The position numbers were made by a program, and so were the translations under genes. Positions 49,272-61,357 of a DNA stretch of 64,000 nucleotides are shown piece after piece. The stretch spans positions 62,001-126,000 of the forward strand of contig CATLBR010000004.1 of assembly GCA_949879795.1 (NCBI GenBank), read 5' to 3'. Position 1 is the stretch's first letter. The number at the start of each line of letters is the position of its first letter. The stretch is from an uncultured Hungatella sp. (GTDB lineage: Bacteria > Bacillota > Clostridia > Lachnospirales > Lachnospiraceae). The notes beneath the pieces were generated by a model. It had not been told where the DNA came from. It was given only the letters and a program-made list of their open reading frames with translations, and made no database searches.

Positions 49272-50594
49272 ATGGGATTGGCTACATTTAAAGGCGGCGT
49301 TCATCCATATGAGGGAAAAGAACTGTCCGAGAATCAGCCGATTGAAGTCCTGATGCCGAGAGGAGACCTGGTCTATCCGGTTTCTCAGCATATCGGTGCG
49401 CCTGCGAAGCCTTTGGTGAAAAAAGGCGACCAGGTTCTGGTGGGACAGAAGATCGCAGAGGCCGGAGGCTTCGTATCCGCTAATGTCATCTGTTCCGTGT
49501 CAGGTACGGTAAAGGCGCTGGAGCCTCGTCGTATGGCCAACGGAAGCATGGTGAATTCGATCATAGTGGAGAATGACGGTGATTACAAGACTATAGATGG
49601 AATGGGGGCGGACAGGGATCCCTCATCGCTGTCAAAAGACGAGATTCTGAATATAGTCAAAGAGGCGGGAATTGTGGGCCTGGGCGGCGCAGGTTTTCCG
49701 ACACATGTAAAACTTGCCCCCAAAGACCCGTCAAAGATTGACTATGTCATTGTAAACGGGGCGGAGTGTGAGCCGTATCTGACCAGCGACTACAGGCTGA
49801 TGCTGGAGGAACCGGAGAAGATCATCGGCGGCTTGAAGGTCATGCTTAAGCTGTTTGACAACGCGAAAGGCGTCATCGGCATTGAGAACAACAAGCCGGA
49901 GGCCATCGCCAAGCTGACGGAGCTGGTGAAGGACGAGCCGAAGATTGAGGTTTGTCCTCTTAAGACCAAGTATCCTCAGGGAGGTGAGCGGACTCTGATC
50001 TACGCGGTTACGGGGCGGAAGGTAAACTCCTCCATGCTCCCGGCGGACGCTGGGTGTATTGTGGACAATGTGGACACGGTGATCAGCATCTACATGGCAG
50101 TGTGCAAGAGCACGCCCCTTTTGAGAAAGATCATCACGGTTACGGGAGATGCCGTCGCCAGTCCCAAGAACTTCAACGTAAAGCTGGGAACCTGCTATCA
50201 GGAGCTGATCGATGCGGCAGGCGGATTTAAGACGGAGCCTGAGAAGATCATCTCCGGCGGTCCTATGATGGGTCAGGCTCTGTTTGACGTGACTATCCCG
50301 GTGTCCAAGACTTCATCTGCCCTCACCTGCCTTTCCAAGGATCAGGTGGCCGAGATGGAGCCCACGGCGTGTATCCGCTGCGGCAGGTGTGTAGCGGCTT
50401 GTCCGGAGAACCTGGTTCCCCAGAAGATGATGAGAGCAGCTAAGCGCCACGATATAGACATGTTCCAGAAGCTCAACGGCATGGAGTGTGTGGAGTGCGG
50501 CAGCTGTGCCTGGGGATGTCCGGCGAGACTGCAGCTGACCCAGGCATTCAGAGAGATGCGTGTGGCTGTGAGGGCCAGCGCCAAGAAAGCGTAG
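49272..50594 (+). CDS. rnfC: Rnf electron transport complex subunit C
   Basis: The 440-residue membrane-associated subunit carries NAD(H)/FMN sites (GLGGAGFPTHVKL, YVIVNGAECEPYLTSDYRL) and two [4Fe-4S] motifs near the C-terminus (CIRCGRCVAACPENLVP and CVECGSCAWGCPARL). Rnf passes electrons from reduced ferredoxin to NAD+ and pumps Na+ or H+. RnfC is the NAD-side subunit. It is the first of six genes in the order C-D-G-E-A-B used by clostridia. Confidence 0.98.
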   Translation: MGLATFKGGVHPYEGKELSENQPIEVLMPRGDLVYPVSQHIGAPAKPLVKKGDQVLVGQKIAEAGGFVSANVICSVSGTVKALEPRRMANGSMVNSIIVENDGDYKTIDGMGADRDPSSLSKDEILNIVKEAGIVGLGGAGFPTHVKLAPKDPSKIDYVIVNGAECEPYLTSDYRLMLEEPEKIIGGLKVMLKLFDNAKGVIGIENNKPEAIAKLTELVKDEPKIEVCPLKTKYPQGGERTLIYAVTGRKVNSSMLPADAGCIVDNVDTVISIYMAVCKSTPLLRKIITVTGDAVASPKNFNVKLGTCYQELIDAAGGFKTEPEKIISGGPMMGQALFDVTIPVSKTSSALTCLSKDQVAEMEPTACIRCGRCVAACPENLVPQKMMRAAKRHDIDMFQKLNGMECVECGSCAWGCPARLQLTQAFREMRVAVRASAKKA

Positions 50595-50606
50595 GAGGGG
50601 TGAAAC

Positions 50607-51533
50607 ATGAATAAATTATTGAACGTATCATCATCACCTCATGCCAGGAGCAATGTGCTGACACAGAATCTTATGTTCGATGTGGCCATTGCCATGATTC
50701 CTGCGTCGGTGTATGGTGTGTATCAGTTTGGACTGAAAGCATTGTGTATCATGCTGGTGACCGTGGCCGGAGCGGTGCTCAGCGAGTATGTGTACGAGAG
50801 CCTTATGGGCAGGCCCATCACCGTCATGGATGGAAGTGCCCTGGTGACAGGTATGATTCTGGCTCTCAACATGCCTCCTGAGATCCCCCTCTGGATTCCG
50901 TTTTTAGGAAGCGTGTTCGCCATCATCGTGGTAAAGCAGATCTACGGAGGACTGGGACAGAATTTTATGAACCCGGCTCTGGCGGCCAGATGTTTTCTTC
51001 TGATCTCTTTTGCCAACCAGATGTCGTCCTTTAAGCTGGACGGCGTGTCGGGGGCCACTCCTCTCTCCGTCCTGAAGAACGGGGGAAGAGTAGACGTGGC
51101 CGCCATGTTTGTGGGAAAGATTCCGGGAACCATCGGCGAGGTGTCTGTCATCGCCCTGCTCATCGGCGCCGTCTACCTGCTGGTGAAGAAAGTGATTTCC
51201 ATACGGATCCCTGCGGCGTATCTGCTCTCCTTCGCTGTGTTCGTGTTTATTTTCGGACAGCATGACCCGGCCTATGTGCTGGCTCACCTGTGCGGCGGCG
51301 GACTGATCTTCGGCGCGTTCTTTATGGCTACGGACTACGTGACCAGCCCCATCACTCCCAAGGGACAGATCGTGTTCGGTATACTTCTGGGTGTTCTCAC
51401 GGGACTGTTCCGTATTTTCGGCGGTTCTGCCGAGGGCGTGTCCTACGCTATCATCATCAGCAACCTGATGGTTCCGCTGATCGAAAAAGTGACCCTTCCG
51501 GTTGCGTTTGGAAAGGAGGGCAAAAAGGCATGA
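50607..51533 (+). CDS. rnfD: Rnf complex subunit D
   Basis: The 308-residue membrane protein has about nine hydrophobic segments and the RnfD/NqrB flavinylation motif around DGVSGATPL (about 144-152), where Thr carries FMN through a phosphoester bond. It contributes to ion translocation. Its stop overlaps the rnfG start by ATGA. Confidence 0.97.
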   Translation: MNKLLNVSSSPHARSNVLTQNLMFDVAIAMIPASVYGVYQFGLKALCIMLVTVAGAVLSEYVYESLMGRPITVMDGSALVTGMILALNMPPEIPLWIPFLGSVFAIIVVKQIYGGLGQNFMNPALAARCFLLISFANQMSSFKLDGVSGATPLSVLKNGGRVDVAAMFVGKIPGTIGEVSVIALLIGAVYLLVKKVISIRIPAAYLLSFAVFVFIFGQHDPAYVLAHLCGGGLIFGAFFMATDYVTSPITPKGQIVFGILLGVLTGLFRIFGGSAEGVSYAIIISNLMVPLIEKVTLPVAFGKEGKKA

Positions 51534-52141
51534 GTAAAGGTGGATTTATGAAAGACGCCCTGATTCTTTTCGCCATCACTCTGGTCGCAGGAGCATGTTT
51601 AGGCGGCGCCTACGAGATCACGAAGGGGCCTATTGAGGCGGCGGAACTGGCGGCCAAGGAGGATGCTTTCCGCACGGTTTTGGCGGACGCGGATTCATTC
51701 AAGCTGGATGATTACTCCGCGGCTCTTGAGAAAGCGAATAATGACGCGGCGGGGCTGGGTTTCGGCAATGTGCAGGTGGATGAGTGCGCCACCGGCGTGG
51801 ATGCCTCCGGCAGCCCTATGGGCTATGTGGTGACCGCCACCTCCGGCGACGGCTACGGCGGTAATATCACCGTATCTGTGGGTATCACTGCGGAAGGCGA
51901 GGTGAAGGGAATAGAATTCCTGACCATCGGCGAGACCGCAGGTCTTGGTATGAACGCGGATACTCCCGAGTGGAAAGGCCAGTTTGCAGGAAAGGCCGTG
52001 GAGAGTTTTACCGTGACCAAATCCGGCGCATCGGCGGATAACGAGATTGACGCTATCAGCGGTGCTACCATTACATCCAACGCAGTGACAGGAGCGGTGA
52101 ATACAGCTCTCTATTTTGTCAACAGCTGCGTGAATCAGTAG
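51530..52141 (+). CDS. rnfG: Rnf complex subunit G
   Basis: The ATG at 51530 overlaps the rnfD stop and gives 203 residues. One N-terminal membrane helix anchors an FMN-binding domain outside the membrane. DAISGATIT contains T180, the expected covalent FMN site; the ETAGLGMN segment (about 144) is also conserved. The open frame extends further upstream, inside rnfD, but that part is out-of-frame sequence. Confidence 0.96.
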   Translation: MSKGGFMKDALILFAITLVAGACLGGAYEITKGPIEAAELAAKEDAFRTVLADADSFKLDDYSAALEKANNDAAGLGFGNVQVDECATGVDASGSPMGYVVTATSGDGYGGNITVSVGITAEGEVKGIEFLTIGETAGLGMNADTPEWKGQFAGKAVESFTVTKSGASADNEIDAISGATITSNAVTGAVNTALYFVNSCVNQ

Positions 52142-52153
52142 GAGGTGGGAGAT

Positions 52154-52945
52154 ATGAATAAATGTGTAGAACGTTTGTATAACGGCATCATTAAAGAGAA
52201 CCCTACCTTCGTTCTGATGCTGGGTATGTGTCCGACTCTGGCTACCACCACCACCGCCGTCAACGGTGTAGGTATGGGTCTCACTACGACTGCCGTGTTG
52301 ATTTTTTCTAACCTTATTATTTCCTCTTTGCGCAAGATTATTCCTGACAGGGTGCGTATTCCCGCGTATATTGTAATCGTGGCATCCCTGGTGACGATTG
52401 TACAGTTGCTTTTGAAGGCTTTTATCCCGTTTTTGGACAAATCGCTGGGAATTTTTATCCCCCTGATCGTGGTAAACTGCATCATTCTGGGGCGTGCCGA
52501 GGCATACGCGGCAAAGAACGGCCCCCTGGAATCTGCTTTTGACGGAATCGGCATGGGGCTGGGATTTACTCTGGGGCTGACCTGCATCGCAGTCTTCCGT
52601 GAACTTTTGGGTGCGGGCACCGTGTTTGGATTGACTGTCATTCCGGAAGCCTACAAGATCTCCATCTTCGGGCTGGCTCCGGGCGCGTTTTTCGTGCTGG
52701 CAGGACTGACCGCTCTGCAGAACAAGTTTAAGATGCCTTCCGCTACCAACGGCTCCGCACCGGAATCCGTGCTGGCCTGCGGCGGCAACTGTATGCACTG
52801 TACCGGATCTGCCTGCATGGCTAACCATGCCCAGCTGGAGACCAGAAGACTCCAGGCGGAGGAGGAAGCCCTGGCAGCAAAGAAAGCCAGTGTGGCTCAG
52901 AAACAGGCAGAACTTTCCGCGAAACTGGACAAAAAAGAAGATTAA
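52154..52945 (+). CDS. rnfE: Rnf complex subunit E
   Basis: The ATG at 52154 after GGAGGTGGGA gives 263 residues. Six membrane segments form the RnfE/NqrD core (NPTFVLMLGMCPTLATTTTAVNG, LIVVNCIILGRAEAYAAKN). The C-terminus adds a Cys-containing tail (ACGGNCMHCTGSACMANH) and an alanine/lysine/glutamate-rich coil absent from short homologues. The extra Cys cluster could bind metal; this is inference. Confidence 0.96.
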   Translation: MNKCVERLYNGIIKENPTFVLMLGMCPTLATTTTAVNGVGMGLTTTAVLIFSNLIISSLRKIIPDRVRIPAYIVIVASLVTIVQLLLKAFIPFLDKSLGIFIPLIVVNCIILGRAEAYAAKNGPLESAFDGIGMGLGFTLGLTCIAVFRELLGAGTVFGLTVIPEAYKISIFGLAPGAFFVLAGLTALQNKFKMPSATNGSAPESVLACGGNCMHCTGSACMANHAQLETRRLQAEEEALAAKKASVAQKQAELSAKLDKKED

Positions 52946-52960
52946 GGAGGAGCGTGGAAG

Positions 52961-53536
52961 ATGAAAGAATTAATTTTGATCGTTGTAGGCGCTGCTCTGG
53001 TGAACAATATTATCCTGAGCCAGTTCCAGGGCCTGTGTCCTTTCCTGGGAGTATCCAAGAAGACGGATACCGCCGCGGGAATGGGCGTTGCCGTTATATT
53101 CGTTATCACTCTGGCCAGCTTTGTGACCAGTCTGATCTACAAGTTTGTTCTGGATCCCCTTAAAATCACCTATCTGCAGACTATCGCGTTTATTCTGGTG
53201 ATTGCGGCTCTGGTGCAGTTTGTGGAGATGTTTTTAAAGAAGAGCATGCCTTCTCTCTACCAGGCGCTGGGAGTGTTTCTCCCCCTCATTACCACCAACT
53301 GTGCGGTATTGGGAGCGGCCCTGACCAATGTTCAGAAACAGTACGGCATTTTGTTCAGTATTTTTAACGGTCTGGGAACGGCTATTGGTTTTACTCTTGC
53401 CATTATCCTTCTGGCAAGCATCCGTGAGAGCATTGAAGATAATGATATTCCTGTTAATTTTAAGGGTTCCCCGATTGTTCTGATTACATCAGGTCTGATG
53501 GCGATCGCGTTTATGGGCTTTGCCGGACTTATCTGA
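52961..53536 (+). CDS. rnfA: Rnf complex subunit A
   Basis: The 191-residue six-helix protein is homologous to RnfE/NqrE, with NNIILSQFQGLCPFLGVSKK and LITTNCAVLGAAL. RnfA and RnfE form the pseudosymmetric membrane core and coordinate a [2Fe-2S] cluster in the membrane. It follows rnfE by 15 bases. Confidence 0.97.
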   Translation: MKELILIVVGAALVNNIILSQFQGLCPFLGVSKKTDTAAGMGVAVIFVITLASFVTSLIYKFVLDPLKITYLQTIAFILVIAALVQFVEMFLKKSMPSLYQALGVFLPLITTNCAVLGAALTNVQKQYGILFSIFNGLGTAIGFTLAIILLASIRESIEDNDIPVNFKGSPIVLITSGLMAIAFMGFAGLI

Positions 53537-53553
53537 GGAGGAGGTAGGGTAAT

Positions 53554-54339
53554 ATGATGGGTTTGCTTATGGCGGCCGGCGTCATCGGTGCTATCGGTAT
53601 CATTATCGGTGTACTGCTGGGTATTGCCAGTGAGAAATTTAAAGTAGAAGTGGACGAGAGAGAGATTCTGGTCCGGGCGGAGCTTCCGGGCAACAACTGC
53701 GGCGGCTGCGGTTTTCCCGGCTGTGACGGCCTGGCCAACGCCATCGCCGCGGGAGGCGCCCCTGTAAACGGATGCCCTGTGGGCGGTCCTGCCGTGGCCG
53801 ACAAGATCGCGGCTATCATGGGCGTGGAGAGCGGCAGCTCAGTGAAGAAAGTTGCTTTTGTGAAATGTAAAGGAACCTGTGACAAGACGAGGGTTCAGTA
53901 CAATTATTACGGCATGGACGACTGCCGCAAAGTGTCCGTGGTCCCCGGCGGCGGCGAGAAGGCCTGTGTCTACGGCTGTATGGGATATGGCTCCTGCGTG
54001 AAAGTCTGCGATTTTGACGCTATCCATGTGGTGGACGGAGTGGCTGTTGTGGACAAGGAGAAGTGTGTGGCCTGTGGTAAATGTGTGGCCACCTGTCCCA
54101 ACCATCTGATCCAGCTGGTGCCCTACGATGCCAAGCACCTGGTGCAGTGCTCGTCCCATGACAAGGGCAAAGATGTGAAGGCCAAGTGTGACAACGGCTG
54201 CATCGGCTGTACTCTGTGTACCAAGCAGTGTGAGTCCGACGCCATCCACATGGACAACAATGTGGCGGTCATCGACTATGAGAAGTGTACCAACTGCGGC
54301 AAGTGCGCCGCCAAGTGTCCGGTGAAGGTGATTCAGTAG
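53554..54339 (+). CDS. rnfB: Rnf complex subunit B
   Basis: The 261-residue subunit accepts electrons from ferredoxin. A membrane helix is followed by a Cys-rich RnfB domain (NNCGGCGFPGCDGLA...GCPVGG) and further [4Fe-4S] ferredoxin motifs (CGKCVATCPNHLI, CIGCTLCTKQCESDAI, CTNCGKCAAKCPVKVI). It is the last gene of the operon and is followed by a terminator. Confidence 0.97.
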   Translation: MMGLLMAAGVIGAIGIIIGVLLGIASEKFKVEVDEREILVRAELPGNNCGGCGFPGCDGLANAIAAGGAPVNGCPVGGPAVADKIAAIMGVESGSSVKKVAFVKCKGTCDKTRVQYNYYGMDDCRKVSVVPGGGEKACVYGCMGYGSCVKVCDFDAIHVVDGVAVVDKEKCVACGKCVATCPNHLIQLVPYDAKHLVQCSSHDKGKDVKAKCDNGCIGCTLCTKQCESDAIHMDNNVAVIDYEKCTNCGKCAAKCPVKVIQ

Positions 54340-54445: not shown

Positions 54446-54477
54446 GAAGCAAGGTGGCAAAATCGGAGCAGCAGCTT

Positions 54478-55734
54478 ATGAAAGCAAAATTTTTTTCTTG
54501 TACTGGGATGCGGGCCATTTTGTTTTCTGTCATATTTCTGTTTTCCTCATGGCCGTTTCCTTCACTGGCACGGGAAACCGACGAGGAACCTCCTTTGAAA
54601 CTCAACGCCCAGTCGGCGGTGCTCATGGACGGGGACACGGGCCGGGTACTTTACGGGAAGGAAGAGGAGCTGGTTCGTCCTATGGCCAGCACCACTAAGA
54701 TCATGACCTGTATCCTGGTCCTGGAACATGGAAATCTGGATGATGAGGTGACAGTGTCCTCCTATGCGGCGGGACAGCCTAAGGTCCATCTGGGAGCCCC
54801 TGCGGGGAGAAGATTTCGTGTGGAAGACCTTCTCTACTCCCTGATGCTGGAGTCTCACAACGACACTGCGGTGATGTTGGCGGAGTATGTGGCAGGAGAT
54901 GTGAAAACGTTTGCAAATATGATGAATCAGAAGGCGGGAGAGATCGGGTGTGAACATACCTGGTTTATCACTCCCAACGGCCTGGATGCTAAGGAGACTA
55001 CGGAGGACGGCACGGAGAAATTTCACGGCACCACAGCCAGGGATCTGGCGGCAATCATGAGTTACTGTACATGGAAGTCTCCAAAGAGCAGGGAATTTTT
55101 GGATATCACCGGCACTCAGAATTACTATTTTACGGATCTGGACGGGAAAGGGAGTTATTCTTGTGTGAACCACAACGGGTTTCTCACCATGATGGACGGA
55201 GTCCTGTCAGGGAAGACGGGATTTACAGGGGGAGCGGGATACTCCTACGTGGCATCCATGGAGGAGGGGGGAAGAAGATATGTGATCGCTCTTCTGGGCT
55301 GCGGCTGGCCGCCTCACAAGACTTACAAGTGGAGCGACGCCAGGGCACTGTACCGCTATGGCCTGGATGAATATCATAACAAAGAGCTGAGGCGGCCCAG
55401 CAAGCTGGGGGAAATACAGGTAGAGGGAGGAATTCCGGGCGATAACTCCATAGGCGGGAAGGCGGTTCTGGAGCTGACGGCGGGACAAGGGGAAAGAGGG
55501 CAGGTGCTGACGGGAGAGGAGGAGCAGGTGACGGTGGCGGCAGAACTTCCGGAGCATGTGGAGGCGCCGGTGGAAAAAGGGCAGGTGGTGGGGAAACTTG
55601 TCTATTCTCTGGGGGGGACCACGGTCTGCATGGAACCAATATATGCGGCGGAGGATGTAAAAGCTATCGACTATTCGTGGTGTCTGGGAAGGGTTTTAGA
55701 CATGTACCTTCACCAGAATTCGGGGGAGAGATGA
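54478..55734 (+). CDS. D-alanyl-D-alanine carboxypeptidase (DacF/PBP5 type)
   Basis: The ATG at 54478 has GGAG about 10 bases upstream and gives a normal signal peptide; an earlier GTG at 54454 would lie at the predicted transcript start. The 418-residue enzyme has S71-T-T-K74, the SHN motif in LESHNDTAV and the KTG box in SGKTGFTGG. A C-terminal PBP5-type beta domain follows (about 300 on). It trims pentapeptide stems of peptidoglycan. In spore formers this class includes DacF, which acts on the cortex. Confidence 0.94.
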   Translation: MKAKFFSCTGMRAILFSVIFLFSSWPFPSLARETDEEPPLKLNAQSAVLMDGDTGRVLYGKEEELVRPMASTTKIMTCILVLEHGNLDDEVTVSSYAAGQPKVHLGAPAGRRFRVEDLLYSLMLESHNDTAVMLAEYVAGDVKTFANMMNQKAGEIGCEHTWFITPNGLDAKETTEDGTEKFHGTTARDLAAIMSYCTWKSPKSREFLDITGTQNYYFTDLDGKGSYSCVNHNGFLTMMDGVLSGKTGFTGGAGYSYVASMEEGGRRYVIALLGCGWPPHKTYKWSDARALYRYGLDEYHNKELRRPSKLGEIQVEGGIPGDNSIGGKAVLELTAGQGERGQVLTGEEEQVTVAAELPEHVEAPVEKGQVVGKLVYSLGGTTVCMEPIYAAEDVKAIDYSWCLGRVLDMYLHQNSGER

Positions 55735-55825: not shown

Positions 55826-55854
55826 TTGAAAAACCATATGTTTAGCGATACAAT
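55826..55854 (+). promoter_or_regulatory. promoter of the carboxyltransferase/sodium-pump cluster
   Basis: TTGAAA (55826-55831), 17 bases, TACAAT (55849-55854). It gives a leader of about 80 bases before the first gene. Confidence 0.7.
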
Positions 55855-55942
55855 ATAATCGGCAGAAATTTGGATTTACAAGACGATTTTTGTTAAAATT
55901 TCTACGAAGTCGTCAAACTATTTTAGGATGGAGGACTGCAAA

Positions 55943-57397
55943 ATGAGTAATTCAGCACAGACATCAGCAAGCAGCAGGATTCACATGCTGCTTGATGAGA
56001 ACAGTTTTGTTGAAGTGGGTGCCTATGTGACAGCCAGGAATACCGATTTTAACATGACAGACAAAAAAACACCTGCTGATGGTGTGGTGACCGGCTATGG
56101 TACCATAGACGGCTGCCTAGTGTATGTGTACAGTCAGGATGCGTCTGTTATGGGCGGTTCCATGGGTGAGATGCATGCAAAGAAAATCTCCAGCATTTAC
56201 GCTATGGCCATGAAGATGGGAGCACCGGTGATCGGACTGGTGGACTGCGCAGGCTTAAGGCTTCAGGAGGCCACGGACGCGCTTCATGGCTTCGGGGAGC
56301 TGTACTATCGTCAGACTATGGCTTCCGGCGTGATTCCCCAGATTTCAGCTGTATTCGGCACTTGTGGCGGGGGTATGGCAGTGTCCTCGGCACTGGCAGA
56401 TTTTACCTTTATGGAAGAGAAGAAAGCCAAATTGTTTGTGAACTCGCCCAATGCCATCGACAACAACTACGCAGGCAAGTGTGACACCGCCTCTGCCGAA
56501 TATCAGAGCAGTATGGCGGGCAATGTGGATTTTACAGGCAGCGAGGAGGAGATTCTCTCCCAGATTCGCACGCTGATAACCGTTCTTCCTGCCAACAACG
56601 AGGATGACCTGTCTTACGGCGAGTGCAGTGATGATCTGAACAGAGTGTGCGTCGATTTGGAGAACTGTGTGGAGGATACAGGCATCGCCCTGTCTGTTAT
56701 TTCTGATGATCACTTCTTTATGGAAGTCAAAAAAGCATACGCGCCTTCTATGGTCACGGGCTTTATCCGTCTCAACGGAACCACCGTGGGATGCGTGGCC
56801 AATCGGTGCGCCGTGTACGGCGACGACGGAGAGAAGACGGCGGAGTATGCTCCCGTCCTCAACGCCAAAGGCTGCAGAAAGGCAGCCCGGTTTGTTGACT
56901 TCTGTGACGCATTCAATATTCCCCTTCTGACTCTGGTGAACGTTACCGGTTATAAAGCAGACAAATGCAACGAGAAGACCATGGCAAAGTCTGCCGCCAG
57001 GCTCACCAGTGCATTCGCAGGCGCCAGTGTTCCCAAGGTGACTGTGATTGTCGGACAGGCCTACGGAACCGCTTACCTGACCATGGCCAGCAAGTCCATC
57101 GGGGCAGATATGGTCTACGCATGGCCCACGGCCACGATCGGCATGATGGATGCCGTGCCTGCGGCCAAGATCATGTACGCCGATGAGATCAGGAATTCTG
57201 ACAATGCTGCGGCTCTGATCAATGTGAAGGCAGCCGAGTACAGGGAGCTCCAGTCCAGTGCCATGGCGGCGGCCAGAAGAGGCTATGTGGACGATATTAT
57301 CCAGGCCTGCGATACCAGAAAGCGTGTGATTGCAGCATTTGAGATGTTATTCACAAAGAGAGAGGATCGTCCATCCAAGAAGCATGGCACGGTTTAA
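55943..57397 (+). CDS. acyl-CoA carboxyltransferase, 12S/MmdA type
   Basis: The ATG at 55943, 8 bases after GGAGG, gives 484 residues. Two crotonase-fold halves form the biotin-dependent carboxyltransferase: CAGLRLQEATDALHGFG and FGTCGGGMAVSSALADFTFMEE in the first, VNVTGYKADK and GQAYGTAYLTMASKSIGADMVYAWPTA in the second. Relatives are methylmalonyl-CoA decarboxylase alpha (MmdA) and the 12S subunit of transcarboxylase. The length is slightly below typical MmdA (about 510) and the N-terminus is short. It moves the carboxyl group between an acyl-CoA and the biotin on the carrier protein encoded two genes on. Acyl-CoA preference cannot be read by eye. Confidence 0.9.
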   Translation: MSNSAQTSASSRIHMLLDENSFVEVGAYVTARNTDFNMTDKKTPADGVVTGYGTIDGCLVYVYSQDASVMGGSMGEMHAKKISSIYAMAMKMGAPVIGLVDCAGLRLQEATDALHGFGELYYRQTMASGVIPQISAVFGTCGGGMAVSSALADFTFMEEKKAKLFVNSPNAIDNNYAGKCDTASAEYQSSMAGNVDFTGSEEEILSQIRTLITVLPANNEDDLSYGECSDDLNRVCVDLENCVEDTGIALSVISDDHFFMEVKKAYAPSMVTGFIRLNGTTVGCVANRCAVYGDDGEKTAEYAPVLNAKGCRKAARFVDFCDAFNIPLLTLVNVTGYKADKCNEKTMAKSAARLTSAFAGASVPKVTVIVGQAYGTAYLTMASKSIGADMVYAWPTATIGMMDAVPAAKIMYADEIRNSDNAAALINVKAAEYRELQSSAMAAARRGYVDDIIQACDTRKRVIAAFEMLFTKREDRPSKKHGTV

Positions 57398-57415
57398 ACG
57401 AGAGGTGACAGGCAT

Positions 57416-58180
57416 ATGAAAGGATTGAAAAAAAAGGTATTACTGCTGCTGTGCGTGCTGGTATGTATGTTTGCCGTGACCGCCTGCAGCCAGCAAAAAG
57501 GCGAGCCGTCTCTCACCGAGACCGAGTCCTCATCCCTCCAGTCCAGCGCCAAGCAAATGCTGGAACAGGTGCTGGAGATCGGCGATACCATAGGCCAGGC
57601 GGCCGTGGACCGGTACCGGGAGAACGATATGGAGGCCATGGCTGCCGGTCTCGAGACTTATCTGAGCGCCAGAGACGAGCTTGGGGCCTTTAAGTCCGTC
57701 AGCGGCGGCGAGGCAGAGAAAGACGATGACGGATACAGCATTGTCTTGAACACGGTGTTTGAGAAGAGAGAATGCCGGTTCAACATCACGGTGGATAAGC
57801 GGCTGAAGACAGTGACTTCCATGTCTTTCGACCCAGTGTACACCACAGGTGAGAATATGACGAAGGCGGCGCTGAACACCCTGATGGGAATGGGCACAGT
57901 GTTCCTTGTGCTGATCTTCATCAGCTGGCTCATCAGCTGTTTCCGCTATATCCGTAAGTTTGAGGATAAGATGAATAAAAAGAATGCCCCGGCTCCTGTC
58001 CCTGTGGTGACAAGGACCGTGTCGACCCCGGTTCCTGCCTCACAGGAGGCTCTGACTGACGATCTGGAGCTGGTGGCAGTTATCACCGCTGCTGTAGCGG
58101 CGTCTGAAGGCACCTCGGCGGACGGTCTGGTGGTTCGGTCCATCAGACGCGTGTCGGGCAGCAAATGGAAAAAAGCATAA
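57416..58180 (+). CDS. OadG/MmdD-like small subunit with lipoprotein-type signal
   Basis: The 254-residue protein begins with a signal ending in TAC (Cys about residue 23) followed by a polar domain to about 150, which is unlike the plain short OadG. A membrane helix (about 160-180: TVFLVLIFISWLISCFRYI) and a C-terminal cytoplasmic tail ending in a VAVITAAVAASEG...GLVVRSIRRVSGSKWKKA segment match the OadG/MmdD delta-gamma family. This subunit assembles the carboxyltransferase with the OadB pump. The extracytoplasmic domain is an unusual addition. Confidence 0.8.
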   Translation: MKGLKKKVLLLLCVLVCMFAVTACSQQKGEPSLTETESSSLQSSAKQMLEQVLEIGDTIGQAAVDRYRENDMEAMAAGLETYLSARDELGAFKSVSGGEAEKDDDGYSIVLNTVFEKRECRFNITVDKRLKTVTSMSFDPVYTTGENMTKAALNTLMGMGTVFLVLIFISWLISCFRYIRKFEDKMNKKNAPAPVPVVTRTVSTPVPASQEALTDDLELVAVITAAVAASEGTSADGLVVRSIRRVSGSKWKKA

Positions 58181-58201
58181 TCAATCAGGAGGAGGATCAC
58201 C

Positions 58202-58573
58202 ATGAAAAATTATACGATCACAGTTAACGGCAATGTTTATGAGGTAACCGTAGAGGAAGGAACTTCTACAGGGACAGCCCCTGCTCCGAGAGCCGCGGCC
58301 AGCGCGCCCAAGGCAGCTCCCGCGGCTCCCAAGGCGGCGGCCCCCGCAGGTGCGGCAGGAGCTGTGGCAGTGACGGCTCCCATGCCGGGTAAGATTCTGG
58401 GCATCAAGGCGGAGCCGGGCAAGGCGGTGGCCAAGGGCGAGGCGATTATCATTCTGGAAGCCATGAAGATGGAAAACGAAATTGTAGCTCCGTCGGACGG
58501 AACCGTCGCCACCATCGATGTGTCTGTAGGAGATTCCGTAGAGGCAGGTGCGACTCTGGCCACTTTAAACTAG
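58202..58573 (+). CDS. biotin carboxyl carrier protein
   Basis: The 123-residue carrier has an N-terminal strand, an Ala/Pro-rich flexible linker (about 24-54) and a biotinyl domain with EAMKMEN; K89 is the biotinylation site. It shuttles the carboxyl group between the carboxyltransferase subunits and the OadB pump. Only one carrier is present for two carboxyltransferases in the cluster. Confidence 0.96.
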   Translation: MKNYTITVNGNVYEVTVEEGTSTGTAPAPRAAASAPKAAPAAPKAAAPAGAAGAVAVTAPMPGKILGIKAEPGKAVAKGEAIIILEAMKMENEIVAPSDGTVATIDVSVGDSVEAGATLATLN

Positions 58574-58613
58574 GAATCTGTAAAGACACAGAATTCCGGA
58601 TGGAGGGATTGAC

Positions 58614-59741
58614 ATGGAATATATAACAAGTACCCTGGGGAATCTTCTTCAGCAGACGGCTTTTCTGAACTTGACGGGAGGCAACCTGATTATGATCGGC
58701 GTGGCCTGCGTGTTTTTGTACCTGGCTATCAAGAAGGGATTTGAACCCCTTTTGCTGGTTCCCATCGCCTTTGGAATGCTGCTTGTGAATATCTACCCGG
58801 ATATTATGGAAGAAGGCGGACTCCTCCACTACTTTTTCATGCTGGATGAGTGGAGTATTCTGCCGTCCCTGATTTTTATGGGCGTAGGCGCCATGACGGA
58901 CTTCGGTCCCCTGATTGCCAACCCCAAAAGCTTCCTTCTGGGAGCGGCGGCGCAGTTCGGTATCTACAGCGCCTACTTTCTGGCGATTTTCATGGGCTTT
59001 AACGACAAGGCAGCCGCTGCCATCTCCATTATCGGCGGAGCAGACGGCCCCACATCCATCTTCCTGGCAGGCAAGCTGGGACAGACAGGCCTTATGGGTC
59101 CCATCGCCGTGGCTGCTTACTCCTACATGGCTCTGGTTCCTATCATCCAGCCGCCTATCATGAAACTTTTGACCACAGAGAAGGAGCGGAGAATCAAGAT
59201 GGAGCAGCTTCGCCATGTGTCCAAGCTGGAGAAGATCCTGTTCCCGATTATCGTCACCATTGTGGTATGTATGATCCTGCCTACCACTGCCCCCCTGGTG
59301 GGTATGTTGATGCTGGGAAACTTGTTTAAGGAGTCCGGCGTGGTAGGTCAGCTGGCCGAGACGGCTTCCAACGCCATGATGTATATTGTGGTTATCCTTC
59401 TGGGAACCTCCGTGGGAGCTACCACAAGCGCCGAGGCGTTCCTCAACTGGGATACCATCAAGATCGTCATACTGGGACTTGTGGCGTTTGCGGTAGGTAC
59501 AGCCGCAGGAGTGCTCTTCGGCAAACTGATGTGCAAGATGACAGGAGGAAAGGTGAATCCGCTCATCGGCTCCGCAGGCGTGTCGGCGGTTCCCATGGCG
59601 GCCCGCGTGTCCCAGAAAGTGGGGGCGGAGGCAGATCCTACCAATTTCCTGCTGATGCATGCCATGGGCCCCAATGTGGCGGGCGTCATCGGCACGGCAG
59701 TGGCGGCCGGTACATTTATGGCTATCTTTGGAGTGAAGTAG
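58614..59741 (+). CDS. sodium-translocating decarboxylase beta subunit (OadB/MmdB)
   Basis: The 375-residue membrane protein decarboxylates carboxybiotin and pumps Na+ outward. It has about nine hydrophobic segments and the key motif [15 protein letters not shown] (about 140-154), whose Asp binds Na+ in OadB of Klebsiella. [20 protein letters not shown] (about 316-335) is also strictly conserved. It links decarboxylation energy to the sodium gradient and would complement Rnf. Confidence 0.97.
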
Positions 59742-59889
59742 GGACGTGACAGGTAAATGATCCCAGCGCTGCTGAAAGAGAACGGGAAGACTGTTTGCAG
59801 GCCGCGTGAAGCGCCTGAGACACAGCGGCACCAGGGAAACGGCGAGGCTAGAGAGCGCCGGCAGATGAAAATATCCAGGAGGTAATACA

Positions 59890-61302
59890 ATGGCAGTGAC
59901 AGAGAAGAAACCGGTTAAGATTGTGGAGACCGTCCTCCGTGACGCCCATCAGTCTTTGATCGCCACAAGAATGAGCACCGATCAGATGATTCCCATCATC
60001 GACAAGATGGACAAGATCGGATACTACGCGGTAGAGTGCTGGGGCGGCGCTACATTTGATGCATCTCTGCGTTTCCTGAAGGAGGATCCGTGGGAGAGGC
60101 TGAGAAAGCTGAGAGACGGCTTTAAAAACACAAAGCTGCAGATGCTGTTCCGCGGACAGAATATTTTAGGTTATAATCATTATGCAGACGACGTGGTGGA
60201 GTATTTCGTACAGAAATCAGTGGCCAACGGCATTGATATTATCCGTATTTTTGACTGTCTCAATGATATCCGCAACCTGGAGACAGCGGTAAAGGCGGCC
60301 AACAAGGAGAAGGCCCACGCACAGATCGCTCTGTGCTACACTCTGGGCGACGCCTACACCATGGATTATTGGAAAAATATCGCGAGGAATATCGAGGATA
60401 TGGGAGCGGATTCTATTTGCATCAAGGATATGGCAGGTCTTCTGACCCCGTATGCGGCACAGGAACTGGTGACGGCTCTCAAGAGTTCCACCAACCTTCC
60501 CATCGACCTGCACACCCACTACACCTCAGGTGTGGCTTCCATGACCTATCTGAAGGCTATAGAGTCCGGCTGCGACATCATCGACACGGCCATGTCTCCT
60601 CTGGCCTTGGGAACCAGCCAGCCGGCCACAGAGGTGATGGTGGAGACTTTCCGCGGCACGCCCTACGACACGGGCCTTGACCAGGTGAAACTGGCTGAGA
60701 TCGCGGACTACTTCGCTCCTATCCGGGAGGAAGCTCTTAAGAGCGGCCTTTTAAACCCCAAGGTTCTGGGTGTCAACATCAAGACTCTCCAGTATCAGGT
60801 GCCGGGAGGCATGCTGTCCAATCTGGTTTCCCAGCTGAAGGAAGCAGGCCAGGAGGACAAGTACAGGGAGGTTCTGGAGGAGATTCCCAGAGTGAGAAAA
60901 GATTTCGGCGAACCGCCCCTTGTAACTCCTTCTTCCCAGATCGTGGGAACCCAGGCCGTCATGAACGTCATCGGCGGCGAGAGGTACAAGATGGTTCCGA
61001 AGGAATCAAAGAAGATTATGCTGGGAGAGTTCGGTCAGACTGTAAAGCCGTTTAACCCGGAAGTGCAGAAGAAGATCATCGGCGACGAGACTCCCATCAC
61101 CTGCAGGCCGGCGGATCTGATTCCGCCTCAGCTTCCCCAGTTCGAGAAGGAATGTGCTCAGTGGAAGCAGCAGGAGGAGGATGTGCTCTCCTATGCCCTG
61201 TTCCCCAAGGTGGCCGAGGAGTTCTTCAAGTACAGAGAGGCACAGCAGACCAAGGTGGATTCTGCGGTGGCAGACACGGCCAGCAAGGCTTATCCGGTGT
61301 AG
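59890..61302 (+). CDS. oxaloacetate decarboxylase alpha / pyruvate carboxylase-type carboxyltransferase (5S type)
   Basis: The 470-residue enzyme has the pyruvate/oxaloacetate carboxyltransferase barrel: TVLRDAHQSLIATRM at the N-terminus, the catalytic lysine in CIKDMAGLLTP (about 178) and metal ligands in DLHTHYTSG (about 205-213). The conserved carboxylase domain continues to about 450. It ends without a biotinyl domain, as in the 5S subunit of transcarboxylase, so it must use the separate carrier encoded upstream. A 148-base gap separates it from OadB; AGGAGG precedes the ATG. It would interconvert oxaloacetate and pyruvate with carboxybiotin. Confidence 0.93.
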   Translation: MAVTEKKPVKIVETVLRDAHQSLIATRMSTDQMIPIIDKMDKIGYYAVECWGGATFDASLRFLKEDPWERLRKLRDGFKNTKLQMLFRGQNILGYNHYADDVVEYFVQKSVANGIDIIRIFDCLNDIRNLETAVKAANKEKAHAQIALCYTLGDAYTMDYWKNIARNIEDMGADSICIKDMAGLLTPYAAQELVTALKSSTNLPIDLHTHYTSGVASMTYLKAIESGCDIIDTAMSPLALGTSQPATEVMVETFRGTPYDTGLDQVKLAEIADYFAPIREEALKSGLLNPKVLGVNIKTLQYQVPGGMLSNLVSQLKEAGQEDKYREVLEEIPRVRKDFGEPPLVTPSSQIVGTQAVMNVIGGERYKMVPKESKKIMLGEFGQTVKPFNPEVQKKIIGDETPITCRPADLIPPQLPQFEKECAQWKQQEEDVLSYALFPKVAEEFFKYREAQQTKVDSAVADTASKAYPV

Positions 61303-61317
61303 GTTATATATCTGCGA

Positions 61318-61357
61318 GGCATGGTTTCTGTTTTTGACAGAAGCCATGTCTCTTTAT
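61318..61357 (+). terminator. probable terminator after the carboxyltransferase cluster
   Basis: CATGGTTTCTG pairs with CAGAAGCCATG (one G-T) around a short T-rich loop, followed by a pyrimidine-rich tract. Confidence 0.55.

Follow-up and report, generated by a model that had tools for sequence, protein, structure and literature searches.

A five-gene carboxyltransferase and sodium pump cluster

We analysed a window of 64,000 nucleotides from contig CATLBR010000004.1 of an uncultured Hungatella sp. (assembly GCA_949879795.1; genome 65% complete, 2.63 Mb, 44 contigs). Five genes, M, G, B, P and S, follow one another on its forward strand at 55928-61302, with all open reading frames (ORFs) present and spacers of 18, 21, 40 and 148 bp. 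Our best reading of this operon is a putative split-alpha Na+-translocating oxaloacetate decarboxylase (OAD) combined with a remodelled, probably non-catalytic 12S-like subunit, a reading to which we give a probability of about 0.47. M (55928..57397, 489 aa) is a 12S/MmdA-like carboxyltransferase-fold subunit (PF01039 Carboxyl_trans, 361 bits); an alternative ATG at 55943, preceded by GGAGG, looks like a better start and gives 484 aa. G (57416..58180, 254 aa) belongs to the OadG family (OAD_gamma, 79 bits, residues 150-230), and B (58202..58573, 123 aa) is a biotin carboxyl carrier (Biotin_lipoyl, 70 bits) in which the AMKM motif marks K89 (codon at 58466..58468) as the expected biotin-accepting lysine. 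P (58614..59741, 375 aa) is OadB, the sodium-translocating carboxybiotin decarboxylase subunit (OAD_beta, 515 bits; TIGR01109, 480 bits, above cut-off), and S (59890..61302, 470 aa) is a 5S/OadA-type pyruvate-oxaloacetate carboxyltransferase without a biotin domain (PYC_OADA, 190 bits; HMGL-like, 63 bits). Homologues of the three transcarboxylase subunits, M, B and S, thus stand in one operon. A first-pass annotation of this DNA had given the same genes, coordinates and position of K89, all of which the ORFs, the Pfam matches and the AMKM lysine at residue 89 bear out. It had also described an extra lipoprotein-type part on the OadG-like subunit; indeed, ahead of OAD_gamma G has a long N-terminal part, with a lipobox-like VTAC at residues 21-24.

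The annotation had suggested comparing this gene order across genomes. Our order sample comprised 246 genomes from the window's order, 33 of them from its family; matches were found for M in 131 (E <= 1e-10) and for OadB in 146, and 184 had a protein of the 5S or pyruvate carboxylase type (E <= 1e-60). M-G-B-P-S was found at 63 of 85 mapped M loci, which are a chosen subset of the listed M matches and not all of them; the maps leave out M pieces shorter than 300 aa (one, in locus L109) and carrier, G and S matches under score limits. The other mapped loci had M alone (8), M-G-B-S (4), M-G-B-P (3), M-B-S (3), M-G-B (2), M-B (1) or M-S (1). Among 80 loci from named records, M-G-B-P-S was present in 70, eight were cut by a contig end, and two with room had M-G-B-S (L171, Clostridium sp. 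HBUAS56010; L225, a Herbinix metagenome-assembled genome, MAG). Without the truncated ones, 72 named loci remain; the full order was kept in 70 of these, and M came first in all 72. This arrangement is not due to chance, and the operon is an old and stable unit. The closest named relatives, by M identity, were an Eubacteriales MAG (80%) and an uncultured Lachnospiraceae MAG (78%); M of [Clostridium] citroniae (Lachnospiraceae, Lachnospirales) was 75% identical. At L109 (genome G148), M is broken into ORFs of 124 and 355 aa within an otherwise complete M-G-B-P-S, and this is likely a broken copy.

The M* subunit and its canonical relatives

We use M* for the 65 proteins that comprise the window's M and its relatives, and compared them with canonical M. 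On the mmdA model TIGR01117, the window's M scored 459 bits and three other M* 412-501, as against 831-949 for seven canonical relatives (two of them identical). The gap is informative; the cut-off of 998.8 is not, because the canonical controls miss it as well as M*. A tree of 95 M proteins, computed with a fast method, including 35 of the 65 M* and showing several long branches among divergent proteins, placed all 54 canonical M (14 from the order and 40 from other orders) on one side of a 100* branch. On the other side lay 41 proteins: the 35 M*, the protein of L113 and five divergent proteins of M-B-S or M-G-B-S clusters; the window's M grouped with that of L036, whose genus has M-G-B-S. 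An M tree served to select the 14 canonical M of the order, and the 40 controls from other orders, representing 36 genomes, were hand-picked with best matches and long contigs favoured (two, L253 and L254, are identical). The first-pass annotation had called M a 12S/MmdA protein. Membership of the MmdA/PccB/12S superfamily stands, but the scores place M as what appears to be a distant member and not an ordinary MmdA or 12S.

The difference extends to the active site. In the canonical M of the order, 191 alignment columns were kept in at least 13 of 14 proteins, and 24 of these were lost in M* (kept by at most 2 of 65), including G173, P340, P344, G345, H355, G356, G381 and G408 in window numbering. 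Glycine was found at neither 381 nor 408 in any of the 65 M*, at each in 14/14 canonical M of the order, and at both in 39 of the 40 canonical M from other orders, which include M of pump (M-G-B-P) and of transcarboxylase-like (M-B-S, M-G-B-S) clusters; 38 of these 40 had a complete eleven-position canonical signature. At position 381, M* had Ser (41), Thr (17), Asn (6) or Met (1), with Thr in the window (codon at 57068..57070); at position 408, in the VMG motif, it had Asp (31), Asn (16), Glu (9), Pro (4), Ser (3), Gln (1) or Lys (1), with Asp in the window (57149..57151). The 80 named loci also lacked glycine at 381 (Ser 56, Thr 22, Asn 2) and at 408 (Asp 72, Asn 6, Glu 2). Counted in the alignment, window position 381 corresponds to Gly419 of Streptomyces coelicolor PccB, a numbering anchored on residue 422, three past 419, where the deposited structures 3ib9, 1xnw and 3iav differ. 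We take Gly419-Ala420 of PccB to be one of two oxyanion pairs and Gly182-Gly183 the other. Other residues are newly conserved among the 65 M*: Y91 in 63, N172 in 55, S173 in 59, N175 in 54 and N387 in 63, the window's own M having Ala at 387. In these alignments the canonical active-site signature is absent from M*, which has been remodelled and not just eroded.

Several features of M* nonetheless speak for caution about a loss of catalysis. The N-domain pair (window G148 and G149) is kept in 65/65 and 56/65 M*, and the lost columns are spread over the protein, 13 in the N half and 11 in the C half (mean retention 61% and 58%). Of the five divergent proteins (M-B-S or M-G-B-S) not counted among the 65, L126, an M-B-S protein, has Gly at 381; none of the five has it at 408. 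Furthermore, oxyanion holes are built from backbone amides, so that the loss of a glycine is no proof of lost catalysis.

M* is under purifying selection, with dN/dS of 0.02-0.20 in the 11 informative of 12 pairs, some dS values exceeding 1 and thus lying near saturation. It evolves faster than S, the median pairwise identity being 49% for M* and 72% for S, and lower for M* in 299 of 300 random pairs. This lower identity and the split of M into two ORFs at L109 are what one could cite for M* as a decaying passenger gene without function; given the dN/dS values and the leading position of M in every roomy named locus, we regard such decay as most improbable.

The first-pass annotation took M for an acyl-CoA carboxyltransferase of the 12S/MmdA type and suggested that the cell could alternate between a Na+-exporting decarboxylase and methylmalonyl-CoA:pyruvate transcarboxylation, on the grounds of gene content, M and S being homologous to the two halves of transcarboxylase (12S and 5S). 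A methylmalonyl-CoA mutase turned up in five of the 246 order genomes (G012, G019, G066, G114 and G130); none was found in any of the 65 M*-bearing genomes, the 65%-complete genome of the window included. Among the genomes that supplied canonical M of other orders, 29 of 36 have a mutase. G012, G019 and G066 each carry the mutase and a canonical M on one contig, with no S mapped next to that M, and in G114 the mapped canonical M and the mutase are on different contigs. A divergent M-B-S (L132) occurs separately in G066. The idea of a shared methylmalonyl-CoA and pyruvate complex gains from two canonical clusters elsewhere in the phylum that adjoin a mutase gene, M-G-B-P-S at L255 (G460) and M-G-B-S at L254 (G336), which are candidates for a true methylmalonyl-CoA/oxaloacetate hybrid with (L255) or without (L254) a pump. 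Canonical M-B-S was seen at L271 and L272, in genomes with mutase, and at L273 (G440), in a genome without it. In addition, the available part of the report on strain BL-4 describes succinate conversion to propionate at nearly 1:1 with no mutase gene identified (PMC7764203), so that, as far as that text goes, a missing recognised mutase gene need not mean that methylmalonyl-CoA is missing. The canonical residues lost in M* are, however, present in the canonical M of mutase-bearing genomes, and the window's cluster is distinct from those of L255 and L254. With Gly381 and Gly408 found in 0/65 relatives and 0/80 named loci, and the mutase in 0/65 genomes, the view of M as a working methylmalonyl-CoA 12S/MmdA is not supported, and the proposed alternation is very unlikely.

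The decarboxylase core and the role of M*

The other subunits resemble those of an OAD. S scored 762 bits on the NCBIfam OAD alpha model NF008985 (cut-off 718), and its relatives in the Protein Data Bank (PDB) were 2nx9 and 1rqb. Its residues D18, K179, H208 and H210, presumably the metal/lysine site of the carboxyltransferase, were conserved in 65/65 proteins; C50 varied (C in 42/65). In P (PDB relative 6iva), seven motif residues, which we take to be the Na+/carboxybiotin residues, were conserved in 63/63 proteins each. G is fast-evolving (dN/dS 0.13-0.33 in 11 pairs). Its long form (at least 241 aa) was present in 29 of 30 family G proteins fetched, 23 of the 30 with a lipobox-like pattern, whereas G measured 84-157 aa outside the window's family in the order sample, and 117-158 aa in the four named loci with a short form; the long N-terminal part is thus nearly confined to the window's family. 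G of L036 and L037 lacks the lipobox cysteine. The biotin domain is absent from S, and the carrier is a separate gene, B; as the domain is not fused to S, the cluster can only be said to work like an OAD. Ten OAD-like loci had no M in the cluster (five G-B-P-S, four S-G-B-P and one S-B-P), which argues that the decarboxylase core is independent of M.

The first-pass annotation had further proposed that one carrier and one pump serve the whole cluster, a claim that a dedicated second carrier or pump would contradict. Neither was found in the window's 65%-complete genome, which has one OadB and two biotin-domain matches, B itself and one AccB-like protein beside an AccC-like one. M, S and OadB occurred together in 32 of the 33 family genomes, 27 of these 32 having exactly one OadB (three in G093 and G193; two in G180, G210 and G214). 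One carrier and one pump therefore seem common to the whole cluster, as had been supposed. At L002 (contig C2 of the window's genome, G000), KipA/PxpC-like, AccB-like and AccC-like genes, named by eye, lie in a row; despite this AccB-like/AccC-like biotin carboxylase set, M is the sole PF01039 match in the 65%-complete genome. Elsewhere, nine OadB genes were found with no carrier or carboxyltransferase alongside (L147, L157, L158, L159, L160, L162, L163, L164 and L165). Eight of them score 425-485 bits on the OadB profile (L147: 612), and OadB of mapped clusters mostly above 600; these solitary genes are possibly stand-alone Na+ transporters.

From homology and the fully conserved residues of S and P, we infer the following decarboxylase steps. 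S would transfer the carboxyl group of oxaloacetate to biotin on B, which would bring it to P, where CO2 would be freed and Na+ exported, with G as the membrane partner. Reverse running, in which pyruvate would be carboxylated at the cost of Na+, may also occur. In transcarboxylase, the 12S-type hexamer is a natural docking body for the carrier and 5S. For this reason we think it most likely that M* serves as a non-catalytic core or regulatory subunit that would dock the carrier and the 5S subunit as the 12S hexamer does.

This assignment has its difficulties. M*, B and S are kept without a clustered pump in L036 and L037 (one genus), L171 and L225, and in more divergent relatives the pump is likewise missing (L114, L125, L126, L131 and L132); M*-B-S without a pump is what one would expect a transcarboxylase to look like. 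In the fetched genomes (G093 aside, and with none sought for L171 and L225), an unclustered OadB was solitary in G193, G045, G018, G066 and G162, and G004 had a separate G-P pair away from its M cluster. Pump loss was accordingly rejected as proof of transcarboxylation, since the solitary OadB genes and the G-P pair make loss and relocation indistinguishable. In addition, M* of G240 (L113) persists without an S-type or OadB match, which a pure docking role leaves unexplained. G240 does have a match of pyruvate-carboxylase strength; G220, with an M-like ORF, resembles it in these matches.

M* might instead have carboxyltransferase activity, with a substrate that is not methylmalonyl-CoA but another acyl-CoA; the obvious candidate is malonyl-CoA/acetyl-CoA. 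In that case the complex would be a hub in which acyl-CoA, oxaloacetate and the Na+ pump swap one carboxyl group via B. Both the activity and the hub are possible but doubtful. The M*-B-S clusters without pump favour them, and the conservation of Y91, N172, S173, N175 and N387 hints at a rebuilt rather than an empty site. Clostridium thermocellum is reported to lack a standard acetyl-CoA carboxylase, and the model in that paper recruits the putative transcarboxylase Clo1313_1523-1526 for malonyl-CoA (PMC5414155); strain BL-4 has, according to the accessible part of its report, a 12S/1.3S/5S-like cluster whose 12S match is 33% identical (PMC7764203). These published reports may weigh against a non-catalytic M*. 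The substrate assignments for both organisms, as given in the accessible parts of the papers, are model or BLAST inferences (PMC7764203, PMC5414155, PMC3561251).

The genomes of the family argue against a malonyl-CoA supply. A strong accD match of its own was found for 25 of the 32 cluster-bearing family genomes. G180, G234 and G242 (99-100% complete) have the cluster, only a weak accD-model match and no fabD match, so that supplying malonyl-CoA to fatty acid synthesis is not what the cluster generally serves for. Malonyl-CoA supply was rejected as a general role, though it may apply locally: six near-complete genomes of the family combine the cluster with no more than a weak accD-model match (these three with G126, G142 and G214). 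In G126, G142 and G214, fabD was matched (partially in G142), and each has a second M-like gene. At L148 (contig C52 of G142), an ORF of 1822 aa lies directly 5' of the second M-like gene (539 aa), and the two are perhaps an alternative acyl-CoA carboxylase.

Another alternative concerns direction. The complex might run mainly in reverse, Na+ entry through OadB driving carboxylation of biotin and then of pyruvate, so that oxaloacetate would be made without ATP and M* could be a CoA-responsive regulator. Such operation finds support in the match distribution: the best match was S-type in 144 order genomes and of a weaker kind (1e-81 to 1e-93) in 40, the four weaker matches with a listed location lie in ORFs of 1156-1166 aa, about as long as pyruvate carboxylase, and both kinds occurred together in at most 4 of the 144. 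G041, the sole sampled family genome without the cluster, has the weaker kind only. Directly upstream, the window also seems to encode an Rnf-type ion pump. However, the exclusion tracks family lines, and avoidance of a futile cycle with a forward decarboxylase would give the same pattern; moreover, most of the 40 weaker matches were not inspected, and sequence cannot tell direction. The rare co-occurrence fits a decarboxylase and a reverse-running carboxylase alike, and we consider mainly reverse operation unlikely. A broader proposal, to which we give similarly little weight, is that across the whole order the pseudo-12S acts as a sensor of acetyl-CoA or some other acyl-CoA and so gates a pyruvate/oxaloacetate carboxyltransferase that is reversible and coupled to Na+; this enzyme would replace acetyl-CoA-regulated pyruvate carboxylase without ATP.

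Known systems and genomic surroundings

The preferred reading, an OAD with a remodelled 12S-like subunit, relates the cluster to several described systems. Like OadGAB, it has OadB, OadG and a PYC_OADA carboxyltransferase with conserved residues that passes NF008985; it differs in the alpha subunit split into S and free B, the long N-terminal part of G and the fifth subunit M*. It shares with MmdABCDE the M superfamily and the M-G-B-P order of canonical clusters, but differs in an M* without the canonical signature, an extra 5S-type S and no mutase found. The Propionibacterium transcarboxylase likewise has 12S, 1.3S and 5S homologues together, its solved 12S (1on3) and 5S (1rqb) being among the PDB relatives; the window differs by the pump (P and G) in the operon and by an M* without the residues kept in canonical proteins. 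The BL-4 cluster is alike in joining 12S-like, carrier and 5S-like genes, but the accessible part of its report describes three genes with no pump among them (PMC7764203).

In C. thermocellum, Clo1313_1523-1526 and Cthe_0699-0701 appear in the available text as a putative transcarboxylase or OAD (PMC5414155, PMC3561251). The available portion of a butyrivibrio study reports OAD for 62 of 62 draft genomes (PMC4478896). A gut survey, in its accessible part, lists multi-subunit MmdABCDE in 290 genomes and the 5S/12S enzyme in 108, the latter in two actinobacterial genera (PMC9403272). Our search of open-licence papers found no report that separates M* from MmdA, and nothing on point about a catalytically lost carboxyltransferase subunit in such complexes, where the literature was represented mostly by titles and the starts of abstracts. 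We place the M*-bearing cluster among the biotin-dependent Na+ decarboxylases, as an apparently undescribed form of them. M* would also be a natural example of an enzyme subunit that has outlasted the dismantling of its canonical active site, next to a primary Na+ pump; L254 and L255 provide canonical counterparts for comparison.

The distinction bears on gut surveys. According to the available text of two papers, MmdA is a gut marker for the succinate route to propionate (PMC8914356), and methylmalonyl-CoA decarboxylase of Dialister, Roseburia, Prevotella and Sodaliphilus was counted as a propionate proxy (PMC12082470). Many Lachnospiraceae carry M*, among them a Roseburia MAG (L205), and we infer that the published Roseburia protein is an M*. 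Since M* lacks the canonical signature and no mutase was found with it, it may be miscounted as propionate capacity; taking the cluster as a sign of propionate production is probably a mistake.

Putative regulatory sites flank the operon. A promoter-like site 5' of M on the forward strand (TTGAAA-17-TACAAT, 55826..55854) matches the consensus at 10 of 12 positions; this consensus match may be due to chance, since the scanned stretch has seven such sites on both strands, as against a shuffle mean of 4.3 (sd 1.9). On the same strand, a terminator-like hairpin of 17 pairs lies 3' of S (61316..61352), and its stem is by far the longest of nine such sites on both strands (shuffle mean 4.7).

Upstream of the cluster, six successive forward-strand ORFs at 49272-54339 look like an Rnf operon (C, D, G, E, A and B, named by eye) and would form a second likely ion pump, separated from M by a D,D-carboxypeptidase gene at 54454-55734. 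A conserved link between the M cluster and upstream Rnf-type genes was considered and rejected, as RnfB was matched in 0 of the 80 named loci within 7 kb upstream. A D,D-carboxypeptidase match was found near M in 53 of these 80 loci, up to 7 kb upstream.

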